From: a virus
DNA: 32,546 nucleotides
IMG/VR virus record: IMGVR_UViG_3300044645_002217
Span: 1 to 32,546 of that record
Direction: 5' to 3' (one strand)
Part shown: piece after piece, positions 1 to 19,572 of the stretch
Layout of the letters: every line of letters begins with the position of its first letter
Position numbering within the stretch: the first letter of the stretch is position 1
Translations under genes and position numbers: made by a program
Notes under the pieces: generated by a model
The model's input: the letters and a program-made list of their open reading frames with translations, nothing else
What the model was told of the DNA's origin: nothing
Database searches by the model: none

Positions 1-20
1 CTCATTCGGAGGTTTTTTCC

Positions 21-467
21 TTGGCCGAGACAGATTTCGAGGCCGACCGGGTCGGTCTTGACCTGTTCGGTCATCCAGTGGGTCCGCTGCGCGATCCGCG
101 GGGGCGTCCATCGTTTGCGAAAAGCAAAGAGAATCAGATGCTTGTGATAACCCTGCGAGCGCGCGGCTGGTCGCAGGCGCAAGTCGCGGCCTTCATGGGC
201 TGCGATGACAAGACTTTGCGGAAACATTTCTCCCGCGAGCTGGAGCACGGCGCGCTGTTCATGGAAGGGATCGCGATGCAGGCGCTGGTCCGCAAGATGC
301 AGGAAGGGCACGTCGGCGCGACCAAGGAAATCCTGGCCATCACGAAGGCAGCGGTCGCGCCGACTTCGCCGGCCAAGCCAAAGGCGACCGCGCCGATCGG
401 CAAGAAGGACGCGCTGCAGCGTGACGCCAAGGCGCCGCCGGAAAGCTGGGGCGAGCTGCTGAACTGA
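21..467 (+). CDS. Terminase small subunit-like DNA-binding protein
   Basis: This 148-aa protein probably recognises phage DNA for packaging as the small terminase subunit. Residues about 40-80 have a helix-turn-helix pattern (RARGWSQAQVAAFMGCDDKT), followed by a basic, Ala/Lys/Pro-rich tail. It lies one base upstream of the large terminase gene, the usual partner position, and that context is the main argument for the call. The start is TTG at 21, chosen because GGAGG at 8-12 sits 8 bases upstream; no ATG gives a better fit. Small terminases diverge strongly, so identity rests on HTH plus synteny. A different DNA-binding regulator is the alternative. Confidence 0.75.
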   Translation: MAETDFEADRVGLDLFGHPVGPLRDPRGRPSFAKSKENQMLVITLRARGWSQAQVAAFMGCDDKTLRKHFSRELEHGALFMEGIAMQALVRKMQEGHVGATKEILAITKAAVAPTSPAKPKATAPIGKKDALQRDAKAPPESWGELLN

Positions 468-468
468 C

Positions 469-2172
469 ATGCCCTTTGACTTTGCCTGCCTCGACTGGGC
501 CGAGAAACTCGCCCGGGGCGAAACGCCTATTGCCGATCTGCCGCTTGATGCCGCGGCGGCCGAGCGGGCGGTGGGGATCTTCAACCGGCTGCGCCTGCCA
601 GATGTGCCGGGGCAACCTTCGCTGGCGGAAGCTGCAGGCGAGTGGATGCGCGACATCGTTCGCGCGGCCTTCGGATCGATGGCGACGAGCGCCAGCGGCT
701 ACGAATCCAGGCAGGTTGGCGAGGTCTTCATCCTGGTGCCAAAGAAGAACGCCAAGACGACGAGCGCGGCGGCCATCGCCCTGACCTTCATGCTGCTCAA
801 CCGGCGGCGCAATGCGGACATGCTGATCATCGGTCCGACGCAGAAGATCAGCGAGACGGCCTTCGAGCAGGCAAAGGGCATGATCGATGCGGACCCGGAA
901 GGGTTCCTGCAGAAGCGGTTCCATGTCCAGGACCACAAGAAGACGATCCGCTGCCGGGTGACTGGCGCGCGGCTGATGATCCGGACGTTCGGAATGGATG
1001 TGCTGACCGGGGCAAAGCCGGTCTTTGCGTTGATCGACGAGGTGCATATCCTGGGGTCCATCCCCTACGCGGCCGATGTGATCCGGCAGATCAGGGGCGG
1101 CATGCTGCCCTTTCCGGAGAGCCTGCTGGTGATGATCACCACGCAGTCGGATCATCCGCCGCAAGGGGTTTTCAGGACCGAGCTTGACTATGCCCGCGCG
1201 GTGCGGGACGGCAAGATCACCGAGCGGGTCAGGCTGCTGCCTGTCCTGTACGAGTTTCCGGACACGATCCAGCGGAGCAAAGGCCGAGACTGGACCGATC
1301 CTGCGCTCTGGCCGATGGTCACGCCGAACCTCGGGCGGTCGGTGTCGATCGAGGCGTTACTGGACGGGTTCGCGCGGGCGAAGGCAGACGGGCAGACAGA
1401 GGTCATCGCCTGGGCGACGCAGCACCTGAACATCGAGGTCGGCGTCGGCATCAGGGCCACGACATGGATCGGGGCGCAGTTCTGGGAGGCCGCGGCCGAG
1501 CCCGATATCGCTGACCTTGGCGCGCTGATGGAGCGCTGCGAGGTTGCCGTTATCGGCATCGACGGCGGCGGGCTTGACGACCTGCTTGGTCTGGCCGTGA
1601 TCGGACGAGAGCGCGGCACGCGAAGGTGGATGTTGTGGACCCATGCCTGGGCGCATCCGGAAGTGCTTGAGCAGCGCAAGGAGATTGCCGGGATTCTGCG
1701 GCAATTCGAGGCTGACGGGGACCTTACGATCCTGTCGGCAGCCGACAAGACCGGCGATGTGACCGGCGTTGCCGACGTGGTCGAGAGGCTGCTTCAGGCC
1801 GGCTTGCTGCCCGGGACCGGGGCAGTCGGGCTGGACCCGTACGGCGTCAGCACGATCGTGGACGAGCTGGCATTCCGGGGCCTGTCAGAAGACCAGATGG
1901 CGGCGATTCCGCAGGGCTCGCGACTTTCGGCGGCGATCTGGGGAATGGAGCGAAAGCTGAAGGACGGAACGCTTGTGCATGCAGCACGTCCGTTGATGGC
2001 CTGGGTCCTGGGCAATGCGAAAACCGAACAGCGGGGCAGCGCGGTGATGATCACCAAGGAAACGGCTGGCAAGGCGAAGATCGACCCTCTGGTCGCGGCC
2101 TTCGATGCCTTCATGCTGATGGCGCGTAACCCGGAAGCGCAGGACGCGAAATCGTTCTGGGAAGCGGTCTAG
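469..2172 (+). CDS. terL: Terminase large subunit (packaging ATPase/nuclease)
   Basis: This 567-aa motor protein pumps DNA into the prohead and cuts the concatemer. The N-terminal ATPase half shows a deviant Walker A at residues 91-98 (PKKNAKTT), as is usual for the HK97-like terminase group, and a Walker B ending in acidic residues at about 186-191 (FALIDE). The C-terminal half has the RNase H-like nuclease pattern, with acidic residues at D365 in an IGIDGGG stretch, near D456 (GLDPYG), and in a KIDPLVAAFDA segment near the end. Length is normal for the family. It follows the small subunit by one base and overlaps the start of the portal gene. Function is secure; the packaging type (cos or pac) cannot be read here. 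Confidence 0.95.
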   Translation: MPFDFACLDWAEKLARGETPIADLPLDAAAAERAVGIFNRLRLPDVPGQPSLAEAAGEWMRDIVRAAFGSMATSASGYESRQVGEVFILVPKKNAKTTSAAAIALTFMLLNRRRNADMLIIGPTQKISETAFEQAKGMIDADPEGFLQKRFHVQDHKKTIRCRVTGARLMIRTFGMDVLTGAKPVFALIDEVHILGSIPYAADVIRQIRGGMLPFPESLLVMITTQSDHPPQGVFRTELDYARAVRDGKITERVRLLPVLYEFPDTIQRSKGRDWTDPALWPMVTPNLGRSVSIEALLDGFARAKADGQTEVIAWATQHLNIEVGVGIRATTWIGAQFWEAAAEPDIADLGALMERCEVAVIGIDGGGLDDLLGLAVIGRERGTRRWMLWTHAWAHPEVLEQRKEIAGILRQFEADGDLTILSAADKTGDVTGVADVVERLLQAGLLPGTGAVGLDPYGVSTIVDELAFRGLSEDQMAAIPQGSRLSAAIWGMERKLKDGTLVHAARPLMAWVLGNAKTEQRGSAVMITKETAGKAKIDPLVAAFDAFMLMARNPEAQDAKSFWEAV

Positions 2173-2174
2173 TG

Positions 2175-3383
2175 ATGAGCGTCCTGTCGCGGATCACTTC
2201 GGCCTTTCGCCGCGAACGCAAGGCAGTGACGGACATTCCGCTTGGGTTCTCATGGTCGGAAAGCCGGGCAGGTTATTCCGTTTCGGCCACGTCTTCGCTG
2301 GAAGTATCGACAGTCATGGCTTGCGTCAGGGCGATCAGCGAAGGCACGGCGCAGGTGCCGATTCATGCTCATCGCCGTGACGGCCGTGGTGTTCGAGGGC
2401 CAAAGGTCGCCCATCCAATCGTCGAGCTTCTTGGTCGCGCGCCGAACGAATGGCAGTCCGGGTACGAGTTCAGGGAAACCATCGCGCTGCATGTCATCCT
2501 GACCGGCAACGCCTATGTCTATGTCAGCCGCCGTGAAGACGGCGGTGTCCTTGAACTGATCCCGATCGAGCCAAGCCGCGTCATGGTCGAGCGCCGACGG
2601 GACATGTCGATCGTGTATCGAATTATGTTCGAGGACGGCAGCACTCCGCTTTTGTCGGCGGCCGATGTCTGGCACCTGCGCGGGCCTTCGTGGGACACAT
2701 GGCGCGGCCTTGATGCAGTCAAGCTGGCACGGCAGTCGATCGGTCTGGCAACGGCCACCGAGGCGGCTCATTCCGCGCTGCACAGAAATGGCGCCCAGGT
2801 CACTGGCCTTCTGTCGATGAACAACAAGCTGAGCCCTGACAGGTACGCTCAACTTGCGGCGTGGCTTGACAGGCATAGCGCGGGCGGAGAGCGCGAAGGC
2901 AAGCCCATCATTCTGGATGACGGCGCCAAATATCAGCCGATGCAGATGACCGGAGTTGACGCGCAGCACGTCGAGACCAGACGGCATCAGGTGCTGGAGA
3001 TTTGCCGCCATTTCCGCGTCATTCCGATGATGGTCGGAGCAAGCGAAACACCGACCTACGCCAGCGCAGAGCAGATGTTCATCGCGCATGTCGTCCATAC
3101 GCTGACCCCCTGGGCAGAACGCATCGAACAATCGGCAACCCGGGCGCTGATATCGTCGAGCGAAAATGTAGAGCTGCGCCACGACTTCAATGACCTGATG
3201 CGAGGCGCGGCACAGGATCGCGCGGAATACAACGCCAAGGCGCTTGGCTCCGGGGGTGCGCCGGCCTGGATGACGCCCAACGAGGTGCGCGCGCAAGAGG
3301 GCCTGGACCCGATTGCCGGCGGGGACGACCTGCCGCGGCCGATACAGGCGCAACCGTCACCGCCTACCGACGCAGCGGTTTGA
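2175..3383 (+). CDS. Portal protein, HK97 family
   Basis: This 402-aa protein would form the dodecameric ring at the capsid vertex through which DNA passes and to which the tail attaches. The sequence has the typical HK97 portal start (variable N-terminus, then a V-MACVRAISEG helix near residue 50), a central ETPTYASAEQ segment, and an Asp/Pro/Gln-rich C-terminus. Length matches the family (about 390-430 aa). The stop of the large terminase overlaps a GTG at 2172, which is directly followed by an ATG at 2175; either start is possible and they differ by one residue. It sits between large terminase and prohead protease, the standard order. Confidence 0.93.
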   Translation: MSVLSRITSAFRRERKAVTDIPLGFSWSESRAGYSVSATSSLEVSTVMACVRAISEGTAQVPIHAHRRDGRGVRGPKVAHPIVELLGRAPNEWQSGYEFRETIALHVILTGNAYVYVSRREDGGVLELIPIEPSRVMVERRRDMSIVYRIMFEDGSTPLLSAADVWHLRGPSWDTWRGLDAVKLARQSIGLATATEAAHSALHRNGAQVTGLLSMNNKLSPDRYAQLAAWLDRHSAGGEREGKPIILDDGAKYQPMQMTGVDAQHVETRRHQVLEICRHFRVIPMMVGASETPTYASAEQMFIAHVVHTLTPWAERIEQSATRALISSSENVELRHDFNDLMRGAAQDRAEYNAKALGSGGAPAWMTPNEVRAQEGLDPIAGGDDLPRPIQAQPSPPTDAAV

Positions 3384-3393
3384 GGATCAGGAC

Positions 3394-4068
3394 ATGAACA
3401 GACTGGAAGTCAAATTCGCGGCCGATGACGTAGACGCGAATACCGGAGAATTTTCGGGCTATGGGGCAGTGTTCGGCAACGTCGATTCCTACGGCGACAC
3501 GATCGCTCCGGGGGCGTTCAAGGCGTCGTTGCGCGAGTGGCGGAAGGCCGGGAAATTGCCCCCGATGCTGGTCCAGCATGGCGGCTGGGGGATGCGTGAC
3601 ATGGATGCGCTTCCGATCGGCATCTGGACCGACATGAGCGAGGACGACAAAGGGCTGACTGTCAAGGGCAGGATCATCAACCTTGACACGGATCGCGGCA
3701 AGACGATCCACGGAGCGATGAAGGAAGGTGCGCTGGACGGCCTTTCGATCGGGTATCTGGCAAAGAAATTCACGCTTGGCACCAAGCCGGACGAGCCGCG
3801 GCGGAAACTGGAAATGATCGACCTTGTCGAGGTTTCGGTTGTGACCTTTCCAGCCAATGGCCTGGCCCGAGTCGCATCCGTCAAAGCGGCCGAAGCGATC
3901 GAAACCATTCGTCAATTCGAGGACTTCCTGCGGGATGCAGGCGGGTTCTCGCACGCCGCGGCGAAAGCAATCGCCTCGCGCGGATTCAAGGCTGCGGATC
4001 CTCGGGATGAGGACGGGGCCGATCTGGCGGCGATCATTCGCCGCAACATCGAAACCCTTTCGACATAG
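3394..4068 (+). CDS. Prohead protease, HK97 (U35) family
   Basis: This 224-aa serine protease should mature the capsid by removing the N-terminal delta domain of the major capsid protein and then degrading itself. Visible family features are the N-terminal FSGYGAVFGNVDSYGD block, a conserved histidine in MLVQHGG, the GLSIGY serine block and the VEVSVVTFPANGLARV strand. The frame is open from 3313, but the ATG at 3394 is preferred: it follows an AGGATCAGG stretch and the upstream residues overlap the portal C-terminus and look non-native. The gene lies directly upstream of the capsid gene, consistent with substrate pairing. Confidence 0.93.
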   Translation: MNRLEVKFAADDVDANTGEFSGYGAVFGNVDSYGDTIAPGAFKASLREWRKAGKLPPMLVQHGGWGMRDMDALPIGIWTDMSEDDKGLTVKGRIINLDTDRGKTIHGAMKEGALDGLSIGYLAKKFTLGTKPDEPRRKLEMIDLVEVSVVTFPANGLARVASVKAAEAIETIRQFEDFLRDAGGFSHAAAKAIASRGFKAADPRDEDGADLAAIIRRNIETLST

Positions 4069-4077
4069 GAGGCCTCG

Positions 4078-5424
4078 ATGGCCGTGGAAGAAATCAAGAG
4101 CCTGATCGAGGATCAGGGCAGGGCTTTCGAAGAGTTCAAGGCGGCAAACGATGCGCGCCTGAAGGAACTCGAGAAGAAGGGCGCATCGGACGTGCTGACC
4201 GAAGAGAAGGTCGCGCGGATCGACGAAGCTCTCAACGTGCTGGCCGAGGCCAAGGAAGCGGTCGAAAAGAAACTGCCGTCGCGCCTGGATGCGATGGAAG
4301 CCAAGATCAACCGCGCCATGCTGGGCGGCGATCTGAAGGCCGACGAAAAGGCTGCTGCCGAGCTGAAGGTGTTCAACGCCGAGGCCAAGTCGCGCGCGGC
4401 GTCTCGCGGCCAGAGCGCAGTGGTGTTCGACGCCGAGGGCTATGCCGACTATCGCAAGGCTTTCGACACCTACATCCGCAACGGGATGACCGCCCTGGCG
4501 GTGTCCGAATCCAAGGCGCTTGCCTCAACCGTTGATCCGGACGGCGGCTACCTTGTTCCGGCGGACATCTCGGGGCGGATCGTTGCGCGGGCCTTCGAGA
4601 CCTCGCCGATGCGTGAATACGCAGCGGTTCAGGTGATCTCGTCGGACGCGCTTGAAGGGCTCTATGATCTCAATCCGGGCGTCTCCGGCGGTTGGGTGTC
4701 GGAGCGGCAGACGCGACCGGAGACCAATACGCCCCAGCTTGGGAAGTGGCGCGTCGAGGTTCACGAGCAGTATGCGAACCCCGCCGCGACCCAGCGCATC
4801 CTTGACGACGCGATTCTGAACGTCGAGGCCTGGCTGGCGGCCAAGACGGGTGACATTCTGGGGCGCACCGAGAATGCGGCTTTCGTGACCGGCGACGGTG
4901 TAGGCAAGCCGCGCGGCTTTGCTTCCTACACCACGGCGGCGACGGAGGACGCTACCCGTTCCTGGGGTGCTCTCGAACACGTCAACACCGGGCAGGCCAG
5001 TGGCTTCCTGACGACCACTGCAGGCTCCGATTGCCTTCTGAACCTGATCGGTGCCTTCAAGGCCGTCTACATCAACACGAACACGGCATGGTACGCTAAC
5101 CGCGCCGCGATCACGGCGGTGCGGAAGCTGAAGTCGCAGGACGGTGTCTATCTGTGGCAGCCCGGCCTGCAGCTCGGCCAGCCGCAGACCCTGCTGACCT
5201 TCCCGGTGCGGCTGATGCAGGACATGGCAGCGCTTGCTTCTGGATCGCTGTCGATGGCGCTTGGCGACATGAACCAGGCCTATCAGATCGTGCAGCGCGC
5301 GGGGATCACCACCCTTCGCGACCCGTTCACGAACAAGCCTTTCGTCCACTTCTACAGCATCGCCCGCGTTGGCGGCGGCATCGTGGACTTCGAAGCGCTC
5401 AAGTTCCTGCGGTTCGGTACCTGA
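4078..5424 (+). CDS. Major capsid protein, HK97 fold with delta domain
   Basis: This 448-aa protein forms the icosahedral shell. Residues 1-about 120 are charged and strongly helical (coiled-coil), the scaffold-like delta domain expected to be cut off by the upstream protease. The HK97 fold follows from about residue 145, with the recognisable DPDGGYLVPADISG entry, an acidic/aromatic E-loop region, a GDGVGKPRGFA block and a C-terminal VHFYSIARVGGGIVDFEA strand. Start at 4078 has a perfect AGGAGG at 4067-4072, overlapping the protease stop, the strongest ribosome site of the late block, fitting high expression. Two repeated hairpins begin at its stop codon. Confidence 0.96.
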   Translation: MAVEEIKSLIEDQGRAFEEFKAANDARLKELEKKGASDVLTEEKVARIDEALNVLAEAKEAVEKKLPSRLDAMEAKINRAMLGGDLKADEKAAAELKVFNAEAKSRAASRGQSAVVFDAEGYADYRKAFDTYIRNGMTALAVSESKALASTVDPDGGYLVPADISGRIVARAFETSPMREYAAVQVISSDALEGLYDLNPGVSGGWVSERQTRPETNTPQLGKWRVEVHEQYANPAATQRILDDAILNVEAWLAAKTGDILGRTENAAFVTGDGVGKPRGFASYTTAATEDATRSWGALEHVNTGQASGFLTTTAGSDCLLNLIGAFKAVYINTNTAWYANRAAITAVRKLKSQDGVYLWQPGLQLGQPQTLLTFPVRLMQDMAALASGSLSMALGDMNQAYQIVQRAGITTLRDPFTNKPFVHFYSIARVGGGIVDFEALKFLRFGT

Positions 5425-5492
5425 TGAGATGCGGGCGGGTATATGCCCGCCCCCATCACTTGATGAGATGCGGGCGGGCGAATGCCCGCCCC
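5422..5492 (+). repeat. Two tandem 39-bp hairpin units after the capsid gene
   Basis: The 18-base string TGATGAGATGCGGGCGGG occurs at 5422-5439 and again at 5461-5478, so the unit is 39 bp. Each copy folds: GGGCGGG (5433-5439) with CCCGCCC (5446-5452), loop 6, extended by GATG/CATC (5428-5431 with 5454-5457) across one C/C mismatch; and GGGCGGG (5472-5478) with CCCGCCC (5485-5491), loop 6. The first unit starts on the capsid stop codon. There is no T-run, so a classic intrinsic terminator is unlikely; mRNA 3'-end protection or processing, or partial attenuation, is more plausible. Confidence 0.85.
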
Positions 5493-5523
5493 TGCCCGAA
5501 ACCCTTTCCAAAGGAGAGCCATC

Positions 5524-5949
5524 ATGCGTGACATGATGAACAACATCCATCCGGTTCCGGCCATCGCGCCGGTCGTGGTGGCTGACAACACCGCCCAAGT
5601 CTCGGCGATCATCGATCTGCGCGACTATGACGGCTGCACTTTCGTTATCCAGACGGGTACGCTCGCCGACGCTGACGCAACCTTTGCGGTCACGCTTGAC
5701 CATGGCGACGCGTCGAACCTTTCGGACGCCACTGCCGTGACGGCGGCGACGGGCCTGATCGGGACGACTGCGCTGGCCGGTTTCAACTTTGCTGATGACG
5801 GCGAGTGCCGCAAGATCGGCTATGCCGGCTCGCGTCGGTACGTCCGGCTGACCGTCACGCCGGCAACCAACACCGGCAATGCCCCGATCGCTGCCGTTGC
5901 AATTCTGGGCCTGCCGAGGATCGCGGCGACCGCAAACCCGCCGCAGTGA
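5524..5949 (+). CDS. Probable capsid accessory/decoration protein, unknown function
   Basis: This 141-aa protein is acidic, Ala/Thr/Val-rich, and predicted mostly beta, with no membrane segment or signal peptide. I do not recognise a named family. Its place between the major capsid protein and the first head-tail connector is where head decoration or stabilisation proteins often sit, and it has a strong ribosome site (AAAGGAGA at about 5510-5517) before ATG 5524, suggesting abundant expression. The frame is open from 5482, but that part runs through the hairpin repeats, so 5524 is preferred. Its stop codon starts another hairpin resembling the two after the capsid gene. The decoration role is inference from position only. 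Confidence 0.75.
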   Translation: MRDMMNNIHPVPAIAPVVVADNTAQVSAIIDLRDYDGCTFVIQTGTLADADATFAVTLDHGDASNLSDATAVTAATGLIGTTALAGFNFADDGECRKIGYAGSRRYVRLTVTPATNTGNAPIAAVAILGLPRIAATANPPQ

Positions 5950-5986
5950 TGAGACCAGGCGGGGTTGCCCTGCAGCCCCGCCTGCT
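5947..5986 (+). other. Third stop-codon hairpin
   Basis: CAGGCGGGG (5956-5964) pairs perfectly with CCCCGCCTG (5976-5984) around an 11-base loop. It starts with TGATGAGA at 5947, the same lead-in as the two repeats after the capsid gene, again with the gene stop codon as its first three bases. It is followed by CTTTG rather than a T-run. Likely a transcript-level element between the capsid genes and the connector genes. Confidence 0.75.
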
Positions 5987-6044
5987 TTGACCGACGATCA
6001 AGCCCGATGCAGACCGTCATAACCATAGCCGCGACCGAGGCAGA

Positions 6045-6617
6045 ATGATGAAACCACTTGCGCCCGTGCTTGTGACGCCGCCTGCGGTGCTGCCTGTGAG
6101 CTTGCAGGAGGTAAAAGCCCAGGCGCGGGTCGACGGGGCTGACGAGGACGGCCTTATTCTCGACTACATCCGGGCTGCAGTGGCGCATCTGGACGGCTGG
6201 TCAGGCATTCTTGGCCGGTGCCTTGTGACACAAGTCTGGGATCAGTCGCTGGACGGTTTCCCTGCGGACGGGACCATCCGCTTGCCCTTTCCGGACGTGA
6301 CTGCGGCCGTCATCACGTATCGCGACCCCGCCGGTCAGGTGCAGACCCTGACGACAGGATGGGTTCTGGCGGCAGATGACGCGGGGTCGTTTGTCAGCTT
6401 GAGTGAAGGCGCGTCCTGGCCGGCGACGGCTGTGAGGCCGGATGCGGTGACGGTGCGCATGACCGCCGGATATGGGACGGCTGCGGCGGTACCTGCCGCG
6501 CTGAAACTTGCCATCCGGGTCAAGGCGGCGGCGATGTATCAGCAGCGCGAAGGTGAGGGCGCCGAGTCGCCCATGTTCGATGCGCTGTTTGCGCCATACC
6601 GGCGGGTCCTTCTGTGA
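6045..6617 (+). CDS. Head-tail connector, phiE125 gp8/gp6-like
   Basis: This 190-aa protein belongs to the head-tail connector group typified by phage phiE125 gp8, which forms the ring under the portal. Evidence is the N-terminal LVTPPAVLPVSLQEVKAQAR-type helix start, an ILDYIRAAVAHLDGWSGILGRCL segment typical of the family, a central beta region, and a C-terminal helical AALKLAIRVKAAAMYQQREG block. Two ATG codons are adjacent (6045 and 6048); GAGG at 6037-6040 spaces better to the second. It overlaps the next gene by a TGATG junction and precedes the head closure protein, the usual order. Confidence 0.85.
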   Translation: MMKPLAPVLVTPPAVLPVSLQEVKAQARVDGADEDGLILDYIRAAVAHLDGWSGILGRCLVTQVWDQSLDGFPADGTIRLPFPDVTAAVITYRDPAGQVQTLTTGWVLAADDAGSFVSLSEGASWPATAVRPDAVTVRMTAGYGTAAAVPAALKLAIRVKAAAMYQQREGEGAESPMFDALFAPYRRVLL

Positions 6618-6943
6618 TGCAAGCGGGACAGATGGACCGGCGGGTGCGGTTTGAGCGGGCGACGTTGACCGATGACGGGGTTGCCATGACTGAAGTCTGG
6701 GCTCCGCATGGCGCTCCAATCTGGGCTGCGAAGGCCGAAATCAGCGACGGCGAGCGGTGGCGCGCCGGCGAAGTGGCGGCGCATGTGACAACCCGGTTCC
6801 GCGTCAGATGGTCGGCGTTTGCGGCCGGCATCACCGCCAAGGACAGACTTGTCTGCGAAGGCCGGACGTTCGACATCACCGGGGTCAAGGAAATCGGCCG
6901 GCGAGAGGGTCTGGAATTCACCGCAGCGGCGAGGGCTGACTGA
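6617..6943 (+). CDS. Head closure (head-tail adaptor) protein
   Basis: This 108-aa small beta-barrel protein would close the portal channel and join head to tail (SPP1 gp16 / HK97 gp7 type). The family pattern is clear: an MDRRVRFER start, a GAPIWAAKAEI strand, an RFRVRWS strand, and a DRLVCEGRTFDITGVKEIGRREGLEF C-terminal half. ATG 6617 overlaps the previous stop (TGATG); a GTG at 6614 in frame adds one residue. It overlaps the next gene by one base, indicating translational coupling through the connector genes. Confidence 0.88.
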   Translation: MQAGQMDRRVRFERATLTDDGVAMTEVWAPHGAPIWAAKAEISDGERWRAGEVAAHVTTRFRVRWSAFAAGITAKDRLVCEGRTFDITGVKEIGRREGLEFTAAARAD

Positions 6944-7515
6944 TGGCTGATGTGAAGTTCGGCTTAACGGTTGACGGGCTAAGCGAGTTCAACGCTGCTC
7001 TGGAAGATCTGGGTAAGAGGATCGGAAAAGCCGTTCTCGAGCGATCGATGCGCAAGGCTGCCGATCCGATGCTGCAGGCAGCAAAGGATATGGCCCCAAA
7101 GCGGAAAGGCAATCTGCGAGACAGCCTGAAAATTGCCAAGGTAACGCTGTTCGACCCCGGCAAAGCTGCCTATGCGGCGACAATCCAGGCGACAGGAGAC
7201 CAGGCAGCTGCGCGCGCGGCCCTTCGCGAAGCCTACAGGGAGCAGGGCGGAGCGGTGGTCGACTTGGCGCTTGGCCCTGATCTGAATGCCAAAGGGCAAT
7301 TCGCGCATCTGGTCGAGTTCGGGACGGGTCCGCGTCATCATGAGAATGGCCGCTTTGTCGGTGAAATGCCGGCCAAACCGTTTCTGCGCCCGGCTTTCGA
7401 CGCCGAAGGTGGAAACACGCTTGAGCGGCTTAAGCCGATCCTGAGTGCAGAAATCGAAAAAGCGGTCAAGCGGCGCGCGGCGAGGGCGGCGCGGGCGGCG
7501 CGGGCCGCGTCATGA
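6943..7515 (+). CDS. HK97 gp10-type tail completion protein
   Basis: This 190-aa protein resembles the HK97 gp10 family, needed to finish or join the tail. Family features are the GLSEFNAALEDLGKRIGKAVLERSMRKAADPML N-terminal helix, the KRKGNLRDSLKI block and the AHLVEFGTGPRH motif followed by PAKPFLRPAFD. The last about 13 residues are an Arg-Ala repeat (RRAARAARAARAAS) made by a GCG/GGC-rich DNA repeat at about 7474-7512, a low-complexity extension I would not expect in the core family. The start ATG overlaps the previous stop by one base; the end overlaps the next gene by four. Confidence 0.88.
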   Translation: MADVKFGLTVDGLSEFNAALEDLGKRIGKAVLERSMRKAADPMLQAAKDMAPKRKGNLRDSLKIAKVTLFDPGKAAYAATIQATGDQAAARAALREAYREQGGAVVDLALGPDLNAKGQFAHLVEFGTGPRHHENGRFVGEMPAKPFLRPAFDAEGGNTLERLKPILSAEIEKAVKRRAARAARAARAAS

Positions 7516-7898
7516 AGGCAGCCTTTCGCGCGCTTCTGATGCAAGCTACGGCCGTTGCGGCTTTGGCCGGCACGCGGATCAACTGGGGTGCGCATCCGCA
7601 GGGGCTGCCATTGCCCGGGATCGTGCTGACGATGGTGAGCGATTTTGAGCCTCTGACGCTGGAGGGCCGCAGTGGCCTGCAACAGGGGCGCGTGCAGGTC
7701 GATTGCTATGCCATCGGATATCTGGCCGCGCACGACCTGTCGGTTGCGGTTCGCGCGGTCCTGCACGGTTACAAGGGCGGTCAGTTCAGATTGATCGAGC
7801 ACGCTGCCACGCGGGATGATCGCGAGGGCGGAAACGATGAAGCCGAGCGGCCATTCCGCATCGGCATGGATTTCATCACTCACTGGAGGACAACATGA
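7512..7898 (+). CDS. Tail terminator, DUF3168 family
   Basis: This 128-aa protein matches the DUF3168 group, thought to cap the tail tube at the head-proximal end (gpU/gp17-like). Seen features are the N-terminal helix FRALLMQATAVAALAGTRINWG, a GIVLTMVSD strand, a GLQQGRVQVDCYA block and the closing RPFRIGMDFITHWR strand. The start overlaps the gp10-like stop as ATGA; its end overlaps the tail tube start as ATGA. Order gp10-like, DUF3168, tube protein is standard for siphoviruses with HK97-type heads. Confidence 0.87.
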   Translation: MKAAFRALLMQATAVAALAGTRINWGAHPQGLPLPGIVLTMVSDFEPLTLEGRSGLQQGRVQVDCYAIGYLAAHDLSVAVRAVLHGYKGGQFRLIEHAATRDDREGGNDEAERPFRIGMDFITHWRTT

Positions 7899-8308
7899 GC
7901 GCTGACATCGGATATACGTCCGAATTCGCCATCGAGGGCGCAACGCCCGGAACCTATGTGAAGGTTGCGCAGGTCGTCGCTATCACGCCGCCCGGGATGA
8001 CACGAGATTCGGTCGAGATTACGCACCTCGAAAGTGCCAACGGGTACAAGGAATACATCGCCGGCCTTAAGGACGGCGGAGAAGCGTCGATCACGTTCAA
8101 CTTCGTCGCTTCGGCCACGGACACGATGGTGACCGCGTTCGAGGCTGACACTGGCAAGTACCAGATCAAGTTTCCCAACGGCGTGCGGATGCAGTTCAGC
8201 GGGTTCTTCACGGCCTACAATCCGCCCGAGCTGGCGCCTGGCAACGTGATGCAGGCGACGGCGACAATGAAGGTGACCGGCAAGGCCACGTTGCTGGCGG
8301 CTTCGTGA
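7895..8308 (+). CDS. Major tail tube protein
   Basis: This 137-aa protein should polymerise into the non-contractile tail tube. It is beta-rich, opens with a YTSEFAIEGATPGTYVKVAQV segment, includes an SVEITHLESANGYKEYIAGLKDGG loop region typical of tube proteins, and ends with an A-T-MKVTGKATLL strand. A GGAGGACA site at about 7883-7890 precedes ATG 7895. Position between the tail terminator and the chaperone pair with a frameshift site is diagnostic. Short for the family, but other Rhodobacterales phages have similarly compact tube proteins (from memory). Confidence 0.88.
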   Translation: MSADIGYTSEFAIEGATPGTYVKVAQVVAITPPGMTRDSVEITHLESANGYKEYIAGLKDGGEASITFNFVASATDTMVTAFEADTGKYQIKFPNGVRMQFSGFFTAYNPPELAPGNVMQATATMKVTGKATLLAAS

Positions 8309-8625
8309 TGGCGAACGCGTTTCTTGGCGAGGCAACTGCCAGGGTTGATGGCAAGGTCTATACCCTCCGGCTTGATTTCAACGCCATGTGCGATTTCGAA
8401 GAGAGGACCGGTCGGGACGCAATCGGCGTTCTGGCCGATTTCGAATTCGGCGGGAAGACAAGGATCAGCGATCTGCGCGCGCTGGTTCATGCCATGCTAC
8501 TGCGGCATCATCCCGATGCCACGTTGGCGCTGGCGGGCGATATCCTGTCGCAGGATTCGACGGCACTGATGGAGGCAGTGAAAGCTGCAACGCCAAAGGT
8601 GCCGGAGGGCCCCGCGGGAAACTGA
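8308..8625 (+). CDS. Tail assembly chaperone G-like (GTA/TAC type)
   Basis: This 105-aa protein would coat the tape measure protein during tail assembly. It resembles the gene transfer agent type chaperone: GEATARVDGKVYTLRLDFNAMCDFEERTGRD followed by a helical domain with RALVHAMLLRHHPDATLALAGDIL. ATG 8308 overlaps the tube stop (TGATG). The last two sense codons before its TGA (8623-8625) form part of a slippery heptamer, so a fraction of ribosomes should continue into the -1 frame to give a longer GT-like form (separate entry). Confidence 0.9.
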   Translation: MANAFLGEATARVDGKVYTLRLDFNAMCDFEERTGRDAIGVLADFEFGGKTRISDLRALVHAMLLRHHPDATLALAGDILSQDSTALMEAVKAATPKVPEGPAGN

Positions 8626-8945
8626 AACGGGCGGGGGCAGAGCGCGCCCGCCTGGATTATCTCCTTCTGCTCGAAAACTACGTCGCGGCAGGATTTGACC
8701 CTACGCAATTCTGGCATCTGTCGCCGCGGCTGTTTCAGGTCCACATGGCAGGTGCGGCGGTCGGCCGCCACAACATGGCGATGCAGCAAGCCTATGCCAC
8801 GGCGGCCCTGATGCGGTCTAAGCGCCTGCCGGACCCGGACCGGTTGATGCGCCGGCGTCTGCCGGAGCCGCGTACACAGTCTCGCGAGATGCTGCAAGCG
8901 ATGTGCGATGCCCTTGCCGCGGCCTGGGGCGCCAAGAAGGAATGA
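8308..8945 (+). CDS. Tail chaperone GT-like fusion made by -1 frameshift
   Basis: The frameshift product would be about 212 aa: the 105-aa chaperone plus 107 residues read in the -1 frame from 8622. The added domain has hydrophobic helices (LDYLLLLENYVAAGFDPTQF, then FQVHMAGAAVGRHNM) and a Pro/Arg-rich link, like the T domain that recruits tape measure and tube proteins. This second frame lacks a credible start of its own: there is no ATG before the conserved helix and no ribosome site. A slippery GGGAAAC at 8616-8622 directly precedes the stop. The arrangement equals lambda G/GT. Fusion is inferred; both frames and the site are seen. Confidence 0.85.
8616..8653 (+). promoter_or_regulatory. 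Programmed -1 ribosomal frameshift site
   Basis: The heptamer G GGA AAC (8616-8622) is in the right phase for tandem slippage, with the zero-frame TGA immediately after (8623-8625). A stem follows: GGGCGGG (8629-8635) pairs with CCCGCCT (8647-8653, one G-T pair) around an 11-base loop, starting 6 bases after the slippery site, the spacing expected for a stimulatory structure. Lambda uses GGGAAAG at the same place. Confidence 0.88.
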
Positions 8946-8948
8946 CGG

Positions 8949-10796
8949 ATGGCTGGAACGATCATCGGCGCCCTGCGCGTCACGCTGGGGCTTGACAGCA
9001 CTCAATTTTCGCGTGGCGTGCAGAAGGCGGAAACAGCATCGCAGCGGCTGTCGCGGTCGATGCAGACCGCTGGCTATGCCTTGTCCGCCATTGGCGTCGG
9101 TGTCGGGCTTGCCATGCGCGGCCGGGTGCAGGAAATCGATGCCCTGGCCAACAGTGCAACCCAGATCGGGGTGCCGGTCGAGGCATTGAGCCAGTTGGCC
9201 TATGCCGCCGAACAGGCTGACGTGACGATCGAGGCGCTTGAGAAGGCGCTTGCGCAGATGTCGCGCAGGATGATCGACAATGCGGGAGCCTTTGAAAAAG
9301 TCGGCGTCGCCGTAACCGATGCGAGCGGCCAGATTCGCCCGGTCCTTGATGTGTTCATGGACGTGGCCGATGCGATTGCCGCGATGCCAGAGGGCGCCGA
9401 AAGAACCGCGGCTGCCATGGACCTGATGGGCCGGTCCGGCGGCGACATGGTGCCGCTGATCAATGACGGCGCGCAGGCGATCCGCGACCTGATGCAAGAG
9501 GCCGACGATCTGGGCCTGACGATTTCGGAAGAAACGGCCGCGGCGATTCAGGCCTTTGATGACAACATGAAAAAGCTGAAAGGTTCGTTGAGCGGCCTGA
9601 CCAACCAGATCGTCGGAAGACTTGCTCCGGCGCTCGAAGACATCTCTGGATACATTGCCGGTCTGGCAGAAAAATTCGGACAATTGACACCTGAAATGCA
9701 GACCTTCGTGTCTGTCCTGGCCGGTCTTCTGGTCGTTGTCGGGCCTATTCTGATCGGGCTTGGCCTGCTTGTGACAGCCATCGGGGCGATATCAGCGCCT
9801 GTTCTTGCCGTGATCGCAGGTATCGGCCTGTTGACTGCTGCATTATGGGCGTTCTGGCCGACGCTGGTCAGTGCGAAGGATGCGATCGTCGCGTTTGTCA
9901 CCGAGGGTTTGGACCGTGCTCGCGAGGCCATTCACAACATGGCAACAGCCATGAGGGACGGCGCTCTGCAGGCGGTCGCCTGGGTCAAGCAAGGTTTTGA
10001 AGAACTGATGGAGTTCTTCCGGTCGCTGCCGGAGCAGTTCATGGAATTCGGGCGCAACATCATTACCGGGTTGTGGGACGGCCTGAAGGAAAAATGGGAC
10101 GCGATGAGCAACTGGTTTTCCGGCAAGGTCGACGAGCTTCTGAACATACTGCCCTGGCGCGCTGAAATTCAGTCGCCGTCGCGCGTGATGCACCGGCAGG
10201 GCGCCTATCTGGTCGAAGGTCTGGACAATGGCATCCGGTCCGGCATGCAGGCGCCGATCGACAGCATGCGAGAGCTGGCCGAGACACTGATGAGCACGAT
10301 GGATGAGCAGGACATCCATCGTGGGACCATGCGGCTGGCCGATCTGTTCGAAGCGATCATCGACGGTTCGATGGATGCCAGAGAAGCGCTTGGTCAATTG
10401 CTGCAGGAGCTGGCAAAGGTGCAGCTGCAGAAAGCACTTCTGGGGCTTGCAGGCGGCGGCGGCGTTTTCGGCCAGTTAGCCGGTGCACTTGGCGAGGCGC
10501 TGACCGCGCCGTCCTTTGCGGGCGGCGGGTATACGGGGCGCGCGGCCCGCGTTGGCGGTCTGGACGGGCAAGGCGGGTTCCTGGCGATCATGCATCCGCG
10601 CGAGACGGTGATCGATCATGCCGATGGGCTGCCGGCCGGAGGTCATGTGGAAGTGGTCGTGCGGGTCGAGGGTGGCAACATCGTCGCCGAAATCGAGCGC
10701 GTCAGCGGCGGCGTCACCGCCCGTGCCGTGGCCGCCTATGACCGCAATCTGTCGCAGAGGGTGCGGCAGATCAACGGCGACAGACGAGCTGTCTGA
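8949..10796 (+). CDS. Tail tape measure protein
   Basis: This 615-aa protein sets tail length and is ejected during DNA entry. It begins IIGALRVTLGLDSTQFSRGV, a common tape measure opening, then long helical stretches (residues about 60-245), a hydrophobic section at about 250-310 with two likely membrane-spanning segments, and a C-terminal LPWRAEIQSPSRVMHRQGAYLVEGLDNGI block, a hallmark of these proteins. Gly-rich C-terminal sequence follows. At 615 aa the tail should be short to medium, roughly 90 nm by the usual 1.5 Angstrom-per-residue rule (inference). It follows the chaperone pair by 3 bases and overlaps the next stop/start by one. Confidence 0.94.
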   Translation: MAGTIIGALRVTLGLDSTQFSRGVQKAETASQRLSRSMQTAGYALSAIGVGVGLAMRGRVQEIDALANSATQIGVPVEALSQLAYAAEQADVTIEALEKALAQMSRRMIDNAGAFEKVGVAVTDASGQIRPVLDVFMDVADAIAAMPEGAERTAAAMDLMGRSGGDMVPLINDGAQAIRDLMQEADDLGLTISEETAAAIQAFDDNMKKLKGSLSGLTNQIVGRLAPALEDISGYIAGLAEKFGQLTPEMQTFVSVLAGLLVVVGPILIGLGLLVTAIGAISAPVLAVIAGIGLLTAALWAFWPTLVSAKDAIVAFVTEGLDRAREAIHNMATAMRDGALQAVAWVKQGFEELMEFFRSLPEQFMEFGRNIITGLWDGLKEKWDAMSNWFSGKVDELLNILPWRAEIQSPSRVMHRQGAYLVEGLDNGIRSGMQAPIDSMRELAETLMSTMDEQDIHRGTMRLADLFEAIIDGSMDAREALGQLLQELAKVQLQKALLGLAGGGGVFGQLAGALGEALTAPSFAGGGYTGRAARVGGLDGQGGFLAIMHPRETVIDHADGLPAGGHVEVVVRVEGGNIVAEIERVSGGVTARAVAAYDRNLSQRVRQINGDRRAV

Positions 10797-11449
10797 TGGC
10801 GCTGTCATTTCCGCTGAACCGGGCTGCATTCTTCGACCTGATGCCGCGCCGGAGTGCCTCGATGCATCTTGGCGAGGCGCTGATCGTAAACCAGACCGGA
10901 GGGGGCGAAGTCATAGAGTCGGCGTATGGAAGCCGGCTATGGCAGGGCAGCATTACGACGCAGGGCAGGGTCAGCGGAGATCTGGACGAAGTCACGGCGC
11001 GGATCGAATTGCTTCTTATGGGTGGCGGGTCATTCCTGATGCCGCATCCGGTACGGATCGGCCCGGCCGCTGACCCGGCGGGCACGATCCTTGGGGCGGC
11101 GACACCTTCGATCACGGCAGTGAACGCGAACAACCGAGACATCACAATCAGCGGTTTGCCAGCGGGCTATGTCCTGCGGCGGGGTGATCTGATTTCGTGG
11201 ACCTACCTTTCCGGCCCGACGAGATATGCGCTGCATCGTGTGGTGACCCAGGCGACGGCAAACGGTTCTGGTGTGCTGACCACGGAAATCATGCCGCCGG
11301 TGCGGCCGGGTCATGCGACGCCCCAGGCCGTGACGCTTGTCAATGCGGTCTGCAAGGCCAAGATCGTGCCTGGCAGCTATCAGGCCCCGGAGGCTGAGCC
11401 TGGTGCAGTCGCAACGCTTGGATTTTCGTGGGTCCAGACCCTGCGATGA
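10796..11449 (+). CDS. Minor tail protein, probable distal tail component
   Basis: This 217-aa protein follows the tape measure, where the distal tail or tip ring protein is encoded. It is beta-rich (LWQGSITTQGRVSGDLDEVTARIELLLMGGGSFLMPHPVRIGP) and ends VATLGFSWVQTLR, resembling distal-tail-like proteins that start a small tip complex in Rhodobacterales phages; I do not recognise a named family with certainty. Start ATG overlaps the tape measure TGA, and the stop overlaps the next start as ATGA. Role is inferred from position and fold type. Confidence 0.75.
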   Translation: MALSFPLNRAAFFDLMPRRSASMHLGEALIVNQTGGGEVIESAYGSRLWQGSITTQGRVSGDLDEVTARIELLLMGGGSFLMPHPVRIGPAADPAGTILGAATPSITAVNANNRDITISGLPAGYVLRRGDLISWTYLSGPTRYALHRVVTQATANGSGVLTTEIMPPVRPGHATPQAVTLVNAVCKAKIVPGSYQAPEAEPGAVATLGFSWVQTLR

Positions 11450-12045
11450 GCTGGTCGGTCAACGCGCAGAACCATCTGCTGGCGCGCGGAGCGGTGAGCC
11501 CGCGCTGGCTGTTGTGGGTCAACGCCAAGGCGCCCGGCACGCTGGCCGCGGCGCCTGTCGGGCTTTGGAGCGGCGCAGACGATCTGACCTTTACCATCGG
11601 CGGCGAGGAGCGGGTCTATAATGGCGCGCTGTCGCAGTTCGACGTGGAACCCATCGTCTTTGGCACGGGGATGGATGTGCGGACCCAGCGCGTGACGCTG
11701 GCCGCCAACGCGCCGGAGACGGCCGACCTGGTGCGGGGCTATGTGATCAGGCTGGCCGAGGCCGAGCTGCATCTGGCGCTGTTCGACCCGCTGACCGAAA
11801 CGGTGATCGATGTGCAGCCGATGTTCCGGGGGTTCATCAACCGGGCGCCACTGTCGACGCCCGTCACGGGCGGCGGGGATGTCGTCACGATCGAGATCGT
11901 GAGCCGCATGCGCGTGCTGGTTCTGCCGGGGCCGGTGCTGCGCAAGACGAACGAGGCACGTCGGGCCTTCGACCCGAATGACGGGTTCCGCAAGTACGGC
12001 TCGATCGCGGGTGAAATCCTGACCGAGTGGGTCCAAAAGAAATGA
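11446..12045 (+). CDS. Minor tail protein (tip/baseplate hub type)
   Basis: This 199-aa protein opens MSWSVNAQNHLLARGAVSPR and is built of beta strands, ending in a segment DPNDGFRKYGSIAGEILTEW that resembles the conserved tail end of hub-like minor tail proteins in several proteobacterial siphoviruses (from memory). The frame is open from 11428, but ATG 11446 overlaps the upstream TGA as ATGA, the coupling used across this operon, so it is preferred. Probably part of the tail tip between the distal protein and the cell wall-acting protein. Confidence 0.75.
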   Translation: MSWSVNAQNHLLARGAVSPRWLLWVNAKAPGTLAAAPVGLWSGADDLTFTIGGEERVYNGALSQFDVEPIVFGTGMDVRTQRVTLAANAPETADLVRGYVIRLAEAELHLALFDPLTETVIDVQPMFRGFINRAPLSTPVTGGGDVVTIEIVSRMRVLVLPGPVLRKTNEARRAFDPNDGFRKYGSIAGEILTEWVQKK

Positions 12046-12473
12046 CGGCGTCGATCGAGGGTCTGACCGGGAACTCGCCCGGGCGGAAGCTGCCGGGGTG
12101 GCAGGCGCGGCTGACCGAGTTTCTGCGGGCCAATTACCGCCGGCCGTTCGAGCCGGGCCGGTGGGATTGCGCGATCTGGGCGGCCGGGGCCGTGCAGGCC
12201 ATGACCGGCGAGGATCATCTGCGGGGATTGCGCGGGTATCGCAGCATTGCCGAGGGGCTGCGACGGCTGCAGGCGAGAGGGTATGACGATCATGTGGCCT
12301 ATGTCGCGGCGTTTCTGCCGGAGATACTGCCCTCGTTTGCGCAGGCGGGGGATATTGCGGTTCTTGACGGCGCAAGCCTCGGGATTGTCCAGGGCGAGCA
12401 TGTGTACTGCTTCGGCACCAACGGGTTCGGCGTTGTGCCGATGACGGCGGCAGGGCGGGCCTTTCGGGTATGA
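12042..12473 (+). CDS. DUF6950-like tail-tip cysteine protein
   Basis: This 143-aa protein resembles the DUF6950 group, small proteins in the tail-tip cluster that look like reduced NlpC/P60 peptidases. The telling motif is RPFEPGRWDCAIWAAGAVQAMTG with the cysteine at residue 43, followed by LRGYRSIAEGLRRL, and a GDIAVLDGASLGIVQG block. A clear catalytic histidine after the cysteine is not obvious, so peptidase activity is uncertain. Gene order (before the TipJ-like protein) matches the slot occupied by NlpC/P60 proteins in gene transfer agents. ATGA overlaps bind it to both neighbours; an upstream ATG at 12027 is less likely. Confidence 0.8.
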   Translation: MTASIEGLTGNSPGRKLPGWQARLTEFLRANYRRPFEPGRWDCAIWAAGAVQAMTGEDHLRGLRGYRSIAEGLRRLQARGYDDHVAYVAAFLPEILPSFAQAGDIAVLDGASLGIVQGEHVYCFGTNGFGVVPMTAAGRAFRV

Positions 12474-15400: not shown

Positions 15401-15550
15401 GCGGTGACGCTGGCGGCGGGTGACCGGTTCGAGATCAGCGCGAAATCGCGCTCCGGCTTCACGATCAAGACGTTCACCGGCGGGGCCGCGAGCACGAATG
15501 CCGCGACGTTCGACTACGTTGTCAGGGGATATGGCGGAGAGATCGCATGA
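12470..15550 (+). CDS. TipJ/lambda J-like central tail tip protein
   Basis: This 1026-aa protein is the central tip and probable host-specificity protein. The first about 23 residues are hydrophobic and end AMADP, looking like a signal peptide, an odd feature for a virion protein. A J-like core spans about 70-560, two fibronectin III-like domains lie at about 573-655 and 657-757 (SYDVRARARSVYG; LSHYKLRYARA; GTYFIRAVDKLG), and a beta-rich C-terminal part carries repeated FD motifs (about 795-880: TLFDAATGDFDDAVGLFD and SFDAAPGLFD). Start overlaps the previous stop as ATGA. Call is firm by length, domains and position; receptor-binding is inferred. Confidence 0.9.
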   Translation: MRALDVVFLALAFGLSAGPAMADPASLIIGFLGVSATGVTAALIRIGVAVAMTALSQLMAARKLKDGPQGFTLRSITAGDQTGQSFILGRYATSGNLTAPEMSHGPFTSDGLFTVTRDTRYLTRVIDLSDVRIDALESLIIDGVACELATGTPATLTMTDGDGDTPAIHPVYGPTVNKGDFIGTAWCKFYDGTQTEADPYLVARYDNPDKPRPWTPDMVGRGVAYAILTFLQRASPVVWQGRPNVRFVVRGIRLYDPRKDSTAGGSGSHRYGNAATHEWTDNPVVMIYNLLRGIRVPASQAGELYGGGYGAEDLPYANWAAAMNACDVMEGERKRYTAGMEVVIGGRDGGGQSPDEVIDELMKACGAQITDVGGTVYIRVGAPGLPVKFITDADILVSQPQELDPFPGAQDSFNVVHATFMAPGQLWTPREAPPRRDADAIAEDGQELAADIALPAVTISGQAQQLMKAWLKDARRFIRQSVTLPPEGLLLKPLDVVDWTSERNGYAGKQFEVGQVAVDPASLCTTLALREVNPSDYDWSIGDELAQDAPDAEITPPNQFRSIPAPQFDVTAELRVGNEQVVGVMVIRCRSESVLLDRYDVSYRRAGDDEWRVVGMSDLSTFEVSGLSDGSYDVRARARSVYGAVSPYTEKTGVQLAFFSAPPADVQNFSGNVVGGFLLLTWDAVPDLDLSHYKLRYARATTGATYQNAVDLVTKVARPGVSLTVPARTGTYFIRAVDKLGIASRTAAQFVVVTNIDQVENLNAVEVRTEEPAFAGARQGVVRLDDGGLPYLTLDTATLFDAATGDFDDAVGLFDGGGASGEVIAEGVYQFADVIDLGQRYTSRVRVDLDVLFLDYADSFDAAPGLFDSRPGEFDGDPAAFDLTSVQPQVSWTDDNPAASPVWSGWQNLSVSDISARALRFRVLLGTRSQKAAPAVTALRVEVDMPDRVESGQDITFTGTRVVTFGRAFRVTPAIGVAVTLAAGDRFEISAKSRSGFTIKTFTGGAASTNAATFDYVVRGYGGEIA

Positions 15551-16605: not shown

Positions 16606-16838
16606 CCCTGCCCGAGGTGATCGACGCCGCGCTGACATGGATTGTCGCGCCGGTGCTGGCGGTGGTCTGGATGATCTACCGCACGCAACAGGAACAGACG
16701 ACCGATATCGCGGTTCTGGAGGCCAAAATGCTGGCCACGAAAGAGGCGCATGACCGGGAGATCAAGGAGGTGCGGGCCAGTTTCAAGGCGGTGCTGGAGA
16801 AGCTGGACCATATCGAGGCGCATTTGCGCGTCAAGTGA
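16602..16838 (+). CDS. Small membrane-anchored coiled-coil protein
   Basis: This 78-aa protein has one N-terminal membrane segment (about residues 11-26, WIVAPVLAVVWMIY) and then a charged helix likely to form a coiled coil (EAKMLATKEAHDREIKEV...LEKLDHIEAHLRVK). Such proteins are common next to lysis genes; it could be an inner-membrane spanin-like or holin-accessory protein, but no partner outer-membrane lipoprotein with a lipobox is adjacent. It is coupled to the fibre gene (ATGA) and overlaps the next gene by one base. Function is not assigned. Confidence 0.75.
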   Translation: MTLPEVIDAALTWIVAPVLAVVWMIYRTQQEQTTDIAVLEAKMLATKEAHDREIKEVRASFKAVLEKLDHIEAHLRVK

Positions 16839-17050: not shown

Positions 17051-17061
17051 AAGGACAGACC

Positions 17062-18593: not shown

Positions 18594-18603
18594 GGGGGCA
18601 ATC

Positions 18604-19314: not shown

Positions 19315-19325
19315 AAGGACACCCC

Positions 19326-19562: not shown

Positions 19563-19572
19563 GGCCTGATCC

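Follow-up and report, generated by a model that had tools for sequence, protein, structure and literature searches.

Strong hairpins stand directly behind the stop codons of two neighbouring genes in the virus record IMGVR_UViG_3300044645_002217 of IMG/VR, the whole of which (32,546 bases) is the window analysed here. The genes concerned are the major capsid gene of an HK97-type head operon and the gene that follows it, whose product is a putative capsid decoration protein. The two-place pattern seen in this one genome is a general one: in the sequences compared, the place of the hairpin and its pairing are conserved, while its letters are not. The position of the hairpins, their conservation, the compensatory change in their stems, their link to two gene families and the absence of a U-tract in the window were observed directly. 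As to function, the explanation that we favour, and hold to be probable with some reservation, is that these are intercistronic 3'-end hairpins which would raise the dosage of the capsid and decoration proteins, in this phage mainly by blocking decay from the 3' side, and in its relatives likely also by leaky termination.

The three hairpins of the window

The head operon runs from the terminase, portal and protease genes through the capsid gene, a gene of 141 amino acids (aa) and a connector gene onward. The part of it that is relevant here contains the following features.

4078-5424, + strand: major capsid protein gene, HK97 fold, with TGA stop at 5422-5424
5422-5499, + strand: tandem pair of 39-bp units, each with an 8-bp GC core
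5428-5457, + strand: hairpin 1, with base GATG/CATC, core GGGCGGGT (5433-5440) / GCCCGCCC (5445-5452) and loop ATAT
5472-5491, + strand: hairpin 2 (the tandem copy), GGGCGGGC / GCCCGCCC, loop GAAT
5512-5516, + strand: ribosome-binding site AGGAG for the 141-aa gene, read in the sequence
5524-5949, + strand: 141-aa gene, phrog_5707 (unknown function), putative capsid decoration protein, with TGA stop at 5947-5949
5952-5988, + strand: hairpin 3, arms 5956-5968 / 5972-5984, after the stop of the 141-aa gene
6045-6617, + strand: head-tail connector gene (PF05135)

The product of 4078-5424 matches Pfam PF05065 (E 3e-68) and is a major head protein by PHROG; its best match in the PDB is Rcc01687, the capsid protein of RcGTA, the gene transfer agent (GTA) of Rhodobacter capsulatus (E 8e-65).

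The three hairpins are real. Folded as stretches of 39, 39 and 44 nt, hairpins 1, 2 and 3 reach -22.8, -19.7 and -27.8 kcal/mol, with z-scores of -4.5, -3.3 and -5.9, and an equally good fold was found in 0, 1 and 0 of 200 shuffled sequences, respectively. The tandem is seen as a 35-nt repeat in two copies (5419-5453 and 5458-5492) with 39-bp spacing and 89% identity, and hairpin 3 as an inverted repeat with 13-nt arms that are 92% complementary. Repeat search and folding therefore bear out the preliminary description of this DNA, which had reported two hairpins in tandem after the capsid gene and a third after the next gene, and the TGA at the first and third is indeed each gene's own stop. 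Its statement that the hairpins start exactly on these stop codons is correct only as regards adjacency: the stem begins 3 nt past the capsid stop for hairpin 1 and 2 nt past the stop of the 141-aa gene for hairpin 3, with the strong cores 8 and 6 nt after the respective stop codons, whereas hairpin 2 is at no stop codon and has its core 47 nt beyond the capsid stop. Hairpin 3 had also been regarded as a diverged copy; it does share TGATGAGA with the other two, but its arms otherwise differ, and an origin by copying cannot be shown.

The motif TGATGAGA occurs three times in the window, always at these hairpins (expected 0.78; 5 of 100 shuffles reach three), and together with a GC arm it occurs twice, as against none in 100 shuffles. 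A repeat family within the phage was rejected because the unit pattern is present only twice and TGATGAGA three times in the record, while a dispersed palindromic repeat of the repetitive extragenic palindromic type would be present in many copies. When the Rfam covariance models were applied to the window at gathering score, tRNA alone was matched.

It should be noted that 25 stem-loops with an energy of -16 or lower are present in the whole GC-rich window, including some of similar energy inside coding DNA, so that energy alone does not single out the three hairpins. Among the simple stem-loops of the first 12 kb they hold ranks 1, 2 and 5 (-26.6, -21.3 and -18.3), ranks 3 and 4 being taken by a stem-loop at 41-72, upstream of the first called gene (-18.6), and by one in coding DNA at 5100 (-18.5). 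Down to an energy of -16, the only intergenic stem-loops of the + strand operon (to about 25.4 kb) are the three hairpins and that at 41-72, and no strong hairpin was found at the end of the connector gene 6045-6617. What sets the three hairpins apart is their position and conservation rather than their energy.

Conservation of the place and turnover of the letters

For comparison, 138 capsid loci were gathered: the window, 78 loci from viral contigs, 46 from one genome scan and 13 regions of named phages; one named-phage record with a 145-nt DNA match to the window was not used. Eight loci without a readable capsid C-terminus or stop were dropped, as were L124, whose stop is distant from the match, and L025 and L103, which had too little DNA; the 127 usable loci fell into 56 clusters below 70% identity. 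Genes at the junctions were called on the + strand by a simple script. Under the strict rule, a stem-loop of -12 kcal/mol or lower had to start within 30 nt of the stop; under the gap rule, the start limit was 45 nt and the hairpin had to lie entirely inside the intergenic gap. Plain minimum free energy (MFE) windows were rejected as a test, being weak in GC-rich coding DNA, and single stem-loops were scored against dinucleotide shuffles in their place.

Under the strict rule, capsid stops have a hairpin in 28 of 56 cases and next-gene stops in 24 of 55, compared with 10 of 185 upstream junctions (positions -4 to -1) and 28 of 295 downstream ones (+2 to +8). Against dinucleotide shuffles, p <= 0.02 is reached at 27/56 capsid and 26/55 next-gene stops with 300 shuffles each, and at 6/185 and 18/295 of the other junctions with 60 shuffles each. 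Under the gap rule, capsid genes are followed by a hairpin in 33 of 57 cases and members of the window's next-gene family in 23 of 39, as against 24 of 502 for all other genes; by family, the counts are 0/48 for the connector, 0/37 for head-closure, 0/25 for the neck and 2/48 for the portal. The difference persists when the count is restricted to junctions whose gap is 30 nt or longer (capsid 33/49, next-gene family 23/32, others 25/140, summed from tabulated values). The window itself belongs to the grouping made here, the capsid-stop hairpin of HK97-type head operons, defined by a GC hairpin in the gap with variable sequence.

The second hairpin follows the next-gene family and not the map position. 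It is present in 21 of the 36 clusters that have this family behind the capsid gene (in one of them, L035, two genes behind instead of one) and in 2 of the 20 that do not. The family profile, A3, matches a single PDB chain, 8cjz, 'Capsid Decoration Protein' (E 9e-4), from which the 5524-5949 product is named a putative capsid decoration protein. Its predicted fold is mostly beta (predicted local distance difference test score, pLDDT, 83.5). In a viral library its best matches are uncharacterised proteins. If it is a decoration protein, the two hairpin sites would belong to the head proteins present in most copies, whereas the genes for low-copy proteins (portal, connector and neck) have almost none.

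Hairpins are also found at the capsid stops of bacterial genomes. The set examined comprised 394 genomes, all from the family to which G001 (Loktanella sp., the source of L084) belongs, presumably the Rhodobacteraceae; 286 of them contain a capsid match at E <= 1e-60. Two capsids that were checked match the R. capsulatus GTA capsid (E 2e-162 and 2e-178), and many of these family-level loci are GTA-like. Seventy junctions were analysed, namely 30 returned automatically and 40 taken in listed order (two listed places were skipped), some of which share a genome. A hairpin of -12 or lower lies within 30 nt of the capsid stop in 55 of the 70, and the shuffle test gives p <= 0.05 in 50 and p <= 0.02 in 40.

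The letters of the hairpin, in contrast to its place, turn over, and TGATGAGA was rejected as a conserved motif. It stands at the capsid stop in 6 of the 127 loci, all of one cluster, and in none of the 70 family-level loci. The tandem, too, is confined to one cluster in the locus listing (L003-L006 and L008 only), and two or more hairpins in the capsid gap, with gaps of up to 400 nt, are limited to the window, L096 and L108 among the 56 clusters. The stop codon itself is outside the conserved signal (over the 56 clusters, TAA 30, TGA 19, TAG 7). The view that the signal is linked to the letters of the stop is accordingly not supported; the search of relatives for TGATGAGA plus hairpin, which the preliminary description had suggested, recovers the hairpin in many of them and the motif in one cluster. 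In L007, the capsid stop is TAA and is followed by a single hairpin of different sequence, and another hairpin, likewise unlike that of the window in sequence, stands after the next gene.

Pairing is retained through these changes. In L005, a 96% relative, a G replaces the C of the single C-C mismatch in hairpin 1 of the window, yielding a new pair; the other differences, judged by eye, concern the loops and flanks, a single pair that closes a loop and a single weak pair at the outer end, the core arms being otherwise the same. A rhizobial set of 11 loci picked by eye contains double changes at 4 of 8 pairs, and 97.6% of its cells are paired, as against 82.5% after shuffling and 43-59% when slid; the count of further pair types, equalled by 26 of 500 shuffles, is a weak measure. 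Of five similar loci outside this set, L080, L120 and L122 look like repeats of its members, the stop of L072 was misread, and L121 has no hairpin. In the related loci L061 and L062 (both at 5279-5345), the loop region of the capsid-stop hairpin seems to have been inverted in one relative to the other, CCTTTCGG in the former and CCGAAAGG in the latter, with pairing retained.

Possible functions of the hairpins

All three hairpins of the window have the GC-rich stem-loop of an intrinsic terminator, but none is followed by a T-run. Their 8-nt tails (ACTTGATG, CTGCCCGA and GACCGACG) are T-poor, and a terminator scan gives no + strand site between 3830 and 11170; on this point scan and tails agree with the preliminary description. 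Two properties of an intercistronic 3'-end stabilising hairpin are thus found, location between co-oriented genes and lack of a U-tract. The hairpins have no downstream promoter of their own, and no + strand promoter was found anywhere in 1-20000, by a scan which covers the sigma-70 type only.

Elements of this kind were already known: phage HK97 has the same core in the same place, and a terminator behind the capsid gene has been reported for phage LUZ100. In HK97 (L140, NC_002167), 5192-5213 is annotated as 'terminator, putative' and reads GGGCGGG GAAA CCCGCCC TTTT. As in the window, the operon is of HK97 type, the core is GGGCGGG/CCCGCCC, and the stem starts 6 nt downstream of the first base of the capsid stop codon. 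Unlike the window, HK97 has a single copy with a GAAA loop and the short T-run TTTT, and the connector gene comes directly next, without a decoration-type gene and a second hairpin. Two further stem-loops of HK97, behind its tail terminator gene (3693-3720) and its major tail gene (4444-4463), also carry the annotation of putative terminators; no T-run follows the second. Among all the loci compared, gap hairpins stand behind 4 of 29 tail terminator genes and are T-rich (4.75 T per 8). In T7, the terminator T-phi stands behind the capsid gene. The T7-like phage LUZ100 is reported to have an apparent strong terminator directly behind its major capsid gene, and so resembles the window in having at this place an element that would set capsid dosage; it belongs, however, to another phage group and has a local capsid promoter, and the window is without a U-tract (PMC10134795).

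The hairpin of the puf operon is not known to carry a U-tract. In puf of R. capsulatus, stabilising mRNA structures are described as setting the product ratio (PMC6238624), and in E. coli operons hairpins without a uridine tract hold internal 3' ends, with puf cited as an older case (Dar and Sorek; PMC5927463). The likeness lies in a stable intercistronic hairpin whose upstream product is needed in excess; the difference is that the window site belongs to a phage head operon. The GTA cluster of Caulobacter contains terGTA, which likewise consists of GC-rich repeats with inverted repeats in an alphaproteobacterial GTA cluster, and which is reported to terminate transcription and to be bypassed by GafZ; it differs in standing behind the first gene, as three 150-bp units, and not at the capsid stop (PMC11150451). 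The literature searched, mostly without subscription papers and partly in excerpt, contained no account of a capsid-stop hairpin across phages. Nor did it mention the breadth of the element, its link to a decoration-type gene or its T-poor form in GTA-like loci.

On the favoured explanation, the mRNA of the late (virion) operon would fold into two successive hairpins past the capsid stop and into one past the stop of the putative decoration gene, and these would generate or shield a 3' end for the cistron before them. Exonucleases arriving from the 3' side of the message or from an internal cut would stall at the hairpin, and the capsid and decoration messages would outlive those of the connector and tail, of which few copies are needed. 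Transcription as a single operon, exonuclease blocking and higher protein dosage are what we infer here. Once the last ribosome has gone, the hairpin would fold and hold the 3' end, and hairpin 2, 47 nt past the stop, would lie beyond the ribosome shadow. With no U-tract in the window, stalling of decay would more likely be the main effect than termination; the many relatives with the same hairpin and a weak U-tract would probably end part of their transcripts there too. Decay blocking, leaky termination and a combination of the two would all suit the hairpins. Two features make decay blocking the preferred effect in the window phage: the lack of a U-tract, and the start of hairpins 1 and 3 at 3 and 2 nt past translated stops. 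In E. coli, the terminating ribosome almost completely represses a terminator located a few nt past a translated stop, and full efficiency is attained only at distances beyond about 27-30 nt (PMC4824070). A role in dosage or at the 3' end, as the preliminary description had proposed, seems to fit the two stops best.

An alternative, possible but on balance rather unlikely, is that the hairpins are leaky intrinsic terminators, so that a fraction of the transcripts ends behind the capsid and decoration genes while read-through feeds the rest of the operon. In the phage set, capsid hairpin tails contain 3.21 T per 8 (n=33), as against 1.48 behind coding hairpins (n=427) and 1.74 on the opposite strand (n=23). 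T-rich tails (at least 4 T of 8) are present at 14 of the 33 (42%), which favours termination there, and the tail of L007 (75% capsid identity) reads, by eye, TTCCCTTT. The HK97 annotation and the LUZ100 terminator agree with this reading, as does the longer spacer between the capsid stop and T-rich hairpins (median 18.5 vs 8 nt, p 0.017). However, the spacer trend is seen neither at the next gene nor in the family-level set, the T bias at the next gene is barely directional (2.70 vs 2.43 T on the opposite strand), and family-level capsid tails, with 1.44 T per 8, are at the background of coding hairpins. The window sites, moreover, are T-poor and absent from the terminator scan, and the repression seen in E. 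coli close behind a translated stop would apply to hairpins 1 and 3. Since the family-level tails are at coding background while those of the phage set are T-rich, the hairpin is the constant part of the element and the U-tract is optional. The earlier statement that the hairpins are not intrinsic terminators consequently holds for the window and, taken together, for the capsid loci of the family-level set; many relatives, on the other hand, have T-rich tails, and HK97 carries the annotation of a putative terminator.

The remaining explanations have lower probability. RNase III acts on about 20 bp or more of double-stranded RNA, a length reached in the window only if the tandem units pair with each other, and it is conceivable, if very unlikely, that they form such a long stem and that cutting there detaches the capsid mRNA from the remaining message. 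For 5422-5523, cross-pairing is indeed 5 kcal/mol better than the separate hairpins (-53.0 vs -48.0), with the core arms 95-100% paired at equilibrium. In prefix folds up to 50 nt, however, unit 1 forms before unit 2 exists, although longer prefixes rearrange, and such cutting cannot be the conserved function because multiple gap hairpins, in gaps of up to 400 nt, are limited to three of the 56 clusters. That the hairpins are a scar at the DNA level, a gene boundary or cassette in which the next gene was inserted with its own hairpin and no RNA function is involved, we regard as very improbable indeed. The hairpin does move together with the next-gene family, and HK97 has the capsid gene, one hairpin and then the connector gene; but the hairpin persists while its sequence is replaced, and the T bias at the capsid gene sits on the mRNA strand. 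Hardly credible is a translational role, in which the TGATG stop-start overlap would place the hairpins within a re-initiation or coupling frame. This frame (5423-5531, part of 5154-5531) is open through both units into the next start and looks uninterrupted by eye in L005, but L007 has TAA and no ATG there, stop codons vary among the clusters, and TGATGAGA is limited to 1 of 56. A small open reading frame or re-initiation leader was rejected on L007, which has neither ATG nor TGA at this place.

Besides the T-rich tails, several observations weigh against the favoured explanation. Absence of the hairpin from homologous phages, which the preliminary description had named as evidence against its proposal, is not the rule, but the strict rule leaves 28 of the 56 clusters without a capsid-stop hairpin; some of these are relatives whose gaps measure 2-27 nt, the streptococcal L139 being one. 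The cruder 45-nt MFE windows, ranked within the same locus, give a weak signal, with the capsid-stop window in the best 5% for 22 of 56 clusters (median rank 11%), and the averaged MFE profile has a coding dip 255 nt upstream that is nearly as deep. The assignment of the decoration protein depends on a single marginal profile match, and a Foldseek search of the 5524-5949 model against the PDB gave no convincing partner among the matches listed (template modelling score of about 0.5 or less). Finally, a gap hairpin stands behind only 1 of 23 genes for the major tail protein, which is also abundant; as a third hairpin-bearing gene it is unsupported, though HK97 has a hairpin there.

GTA-like loci and the capsid to connector ratio

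Many GTA-like loci contain a second element beyond the capsid hairpin, about 60-100 nt after the capsid stop and before the connector gene (L146, L148, L150, L156, L166, L167, L169, L170, L184, L191, L211 and others; an example is L170:1371-1454, minus strand). It consists of two stems, the outer with about 12 pairs and the inner with about 10, around a pyrimidine-rich interior that is conserved and contains TCTAGCTGCTCCC(C)TCCGTCCGAG. The alignment comprises 60 of at least 97 non-redundant stretches (of at least 131) found by the core TTGTCTAGC; 46 of the 60 were aligned from the matches listed in an exact 17-base scan, so that the conserved interior is partly so by construction, whereas the outer stem is outside the search pattern and the inner stem only partly within it. 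Double changes are seen at 16 of 22 pairs (121 such cells vs 33 in shuffles), and 94.9% of cells are paired, compared with 30-57% when slid. A covariance model of the element matches 38 of 69 family-level capsid loci at E <= 0.01, 14 of the 69 being in the model, while among the 74 further sources to which it was applied (the window, L142 and 72 loci from phages, prophages or contigs) it gives one chance-level match (E 0.49). No Rfam match was obtained in the 16 loci scanned, the literature searched gave no account of the element, and the main text of two surveys of bacterial structured RNAs, where available, does not contain the words capsid or gene transfer. The GTA element thus appears from its alignment to be a covarying structured RNA without an Rfam match or a description that could be found, and it deserves separate study.

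Elsewhere in the window, tRNA-Val (25693-25767) adjoins a minus-strand integrase gene (25793-27019). This makes it probable that the phage is temperate, with the tRNA gene as a possible attachment site.

A phage needs hundreds of capsid subunits and about a dozen portal or connector subunits from neighbouring genes. A cheap hairpin standing behind the capsid and decoration-type genes, conserved in position and free in sequence, would be a general answer to the problem of setting this ratio, and it would lend itself to easy tests in gene transfer agents and in the HK97-type phages that laboratory strains carry. A more speculative and, in our view, doubtful proposal is that HK97-type head operons keep the post-capsid gap as a dedicated slot for RNA control, in which the hairpin would act as a translation-gated valve and to which GTAs would have added a structured RNA. 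During fast capsid translation the hairpin, being in the ribosome shadow, could not fold on the nascent RNA and the polymerase would continue; when translation lags or the message is finished, it would fold and end or protect the capsid mRNA. Capsid supply would in this way be coupled to that of the connector and tail, and the tandem of the window would add a second hairpin outside the shadow, always able to fold.

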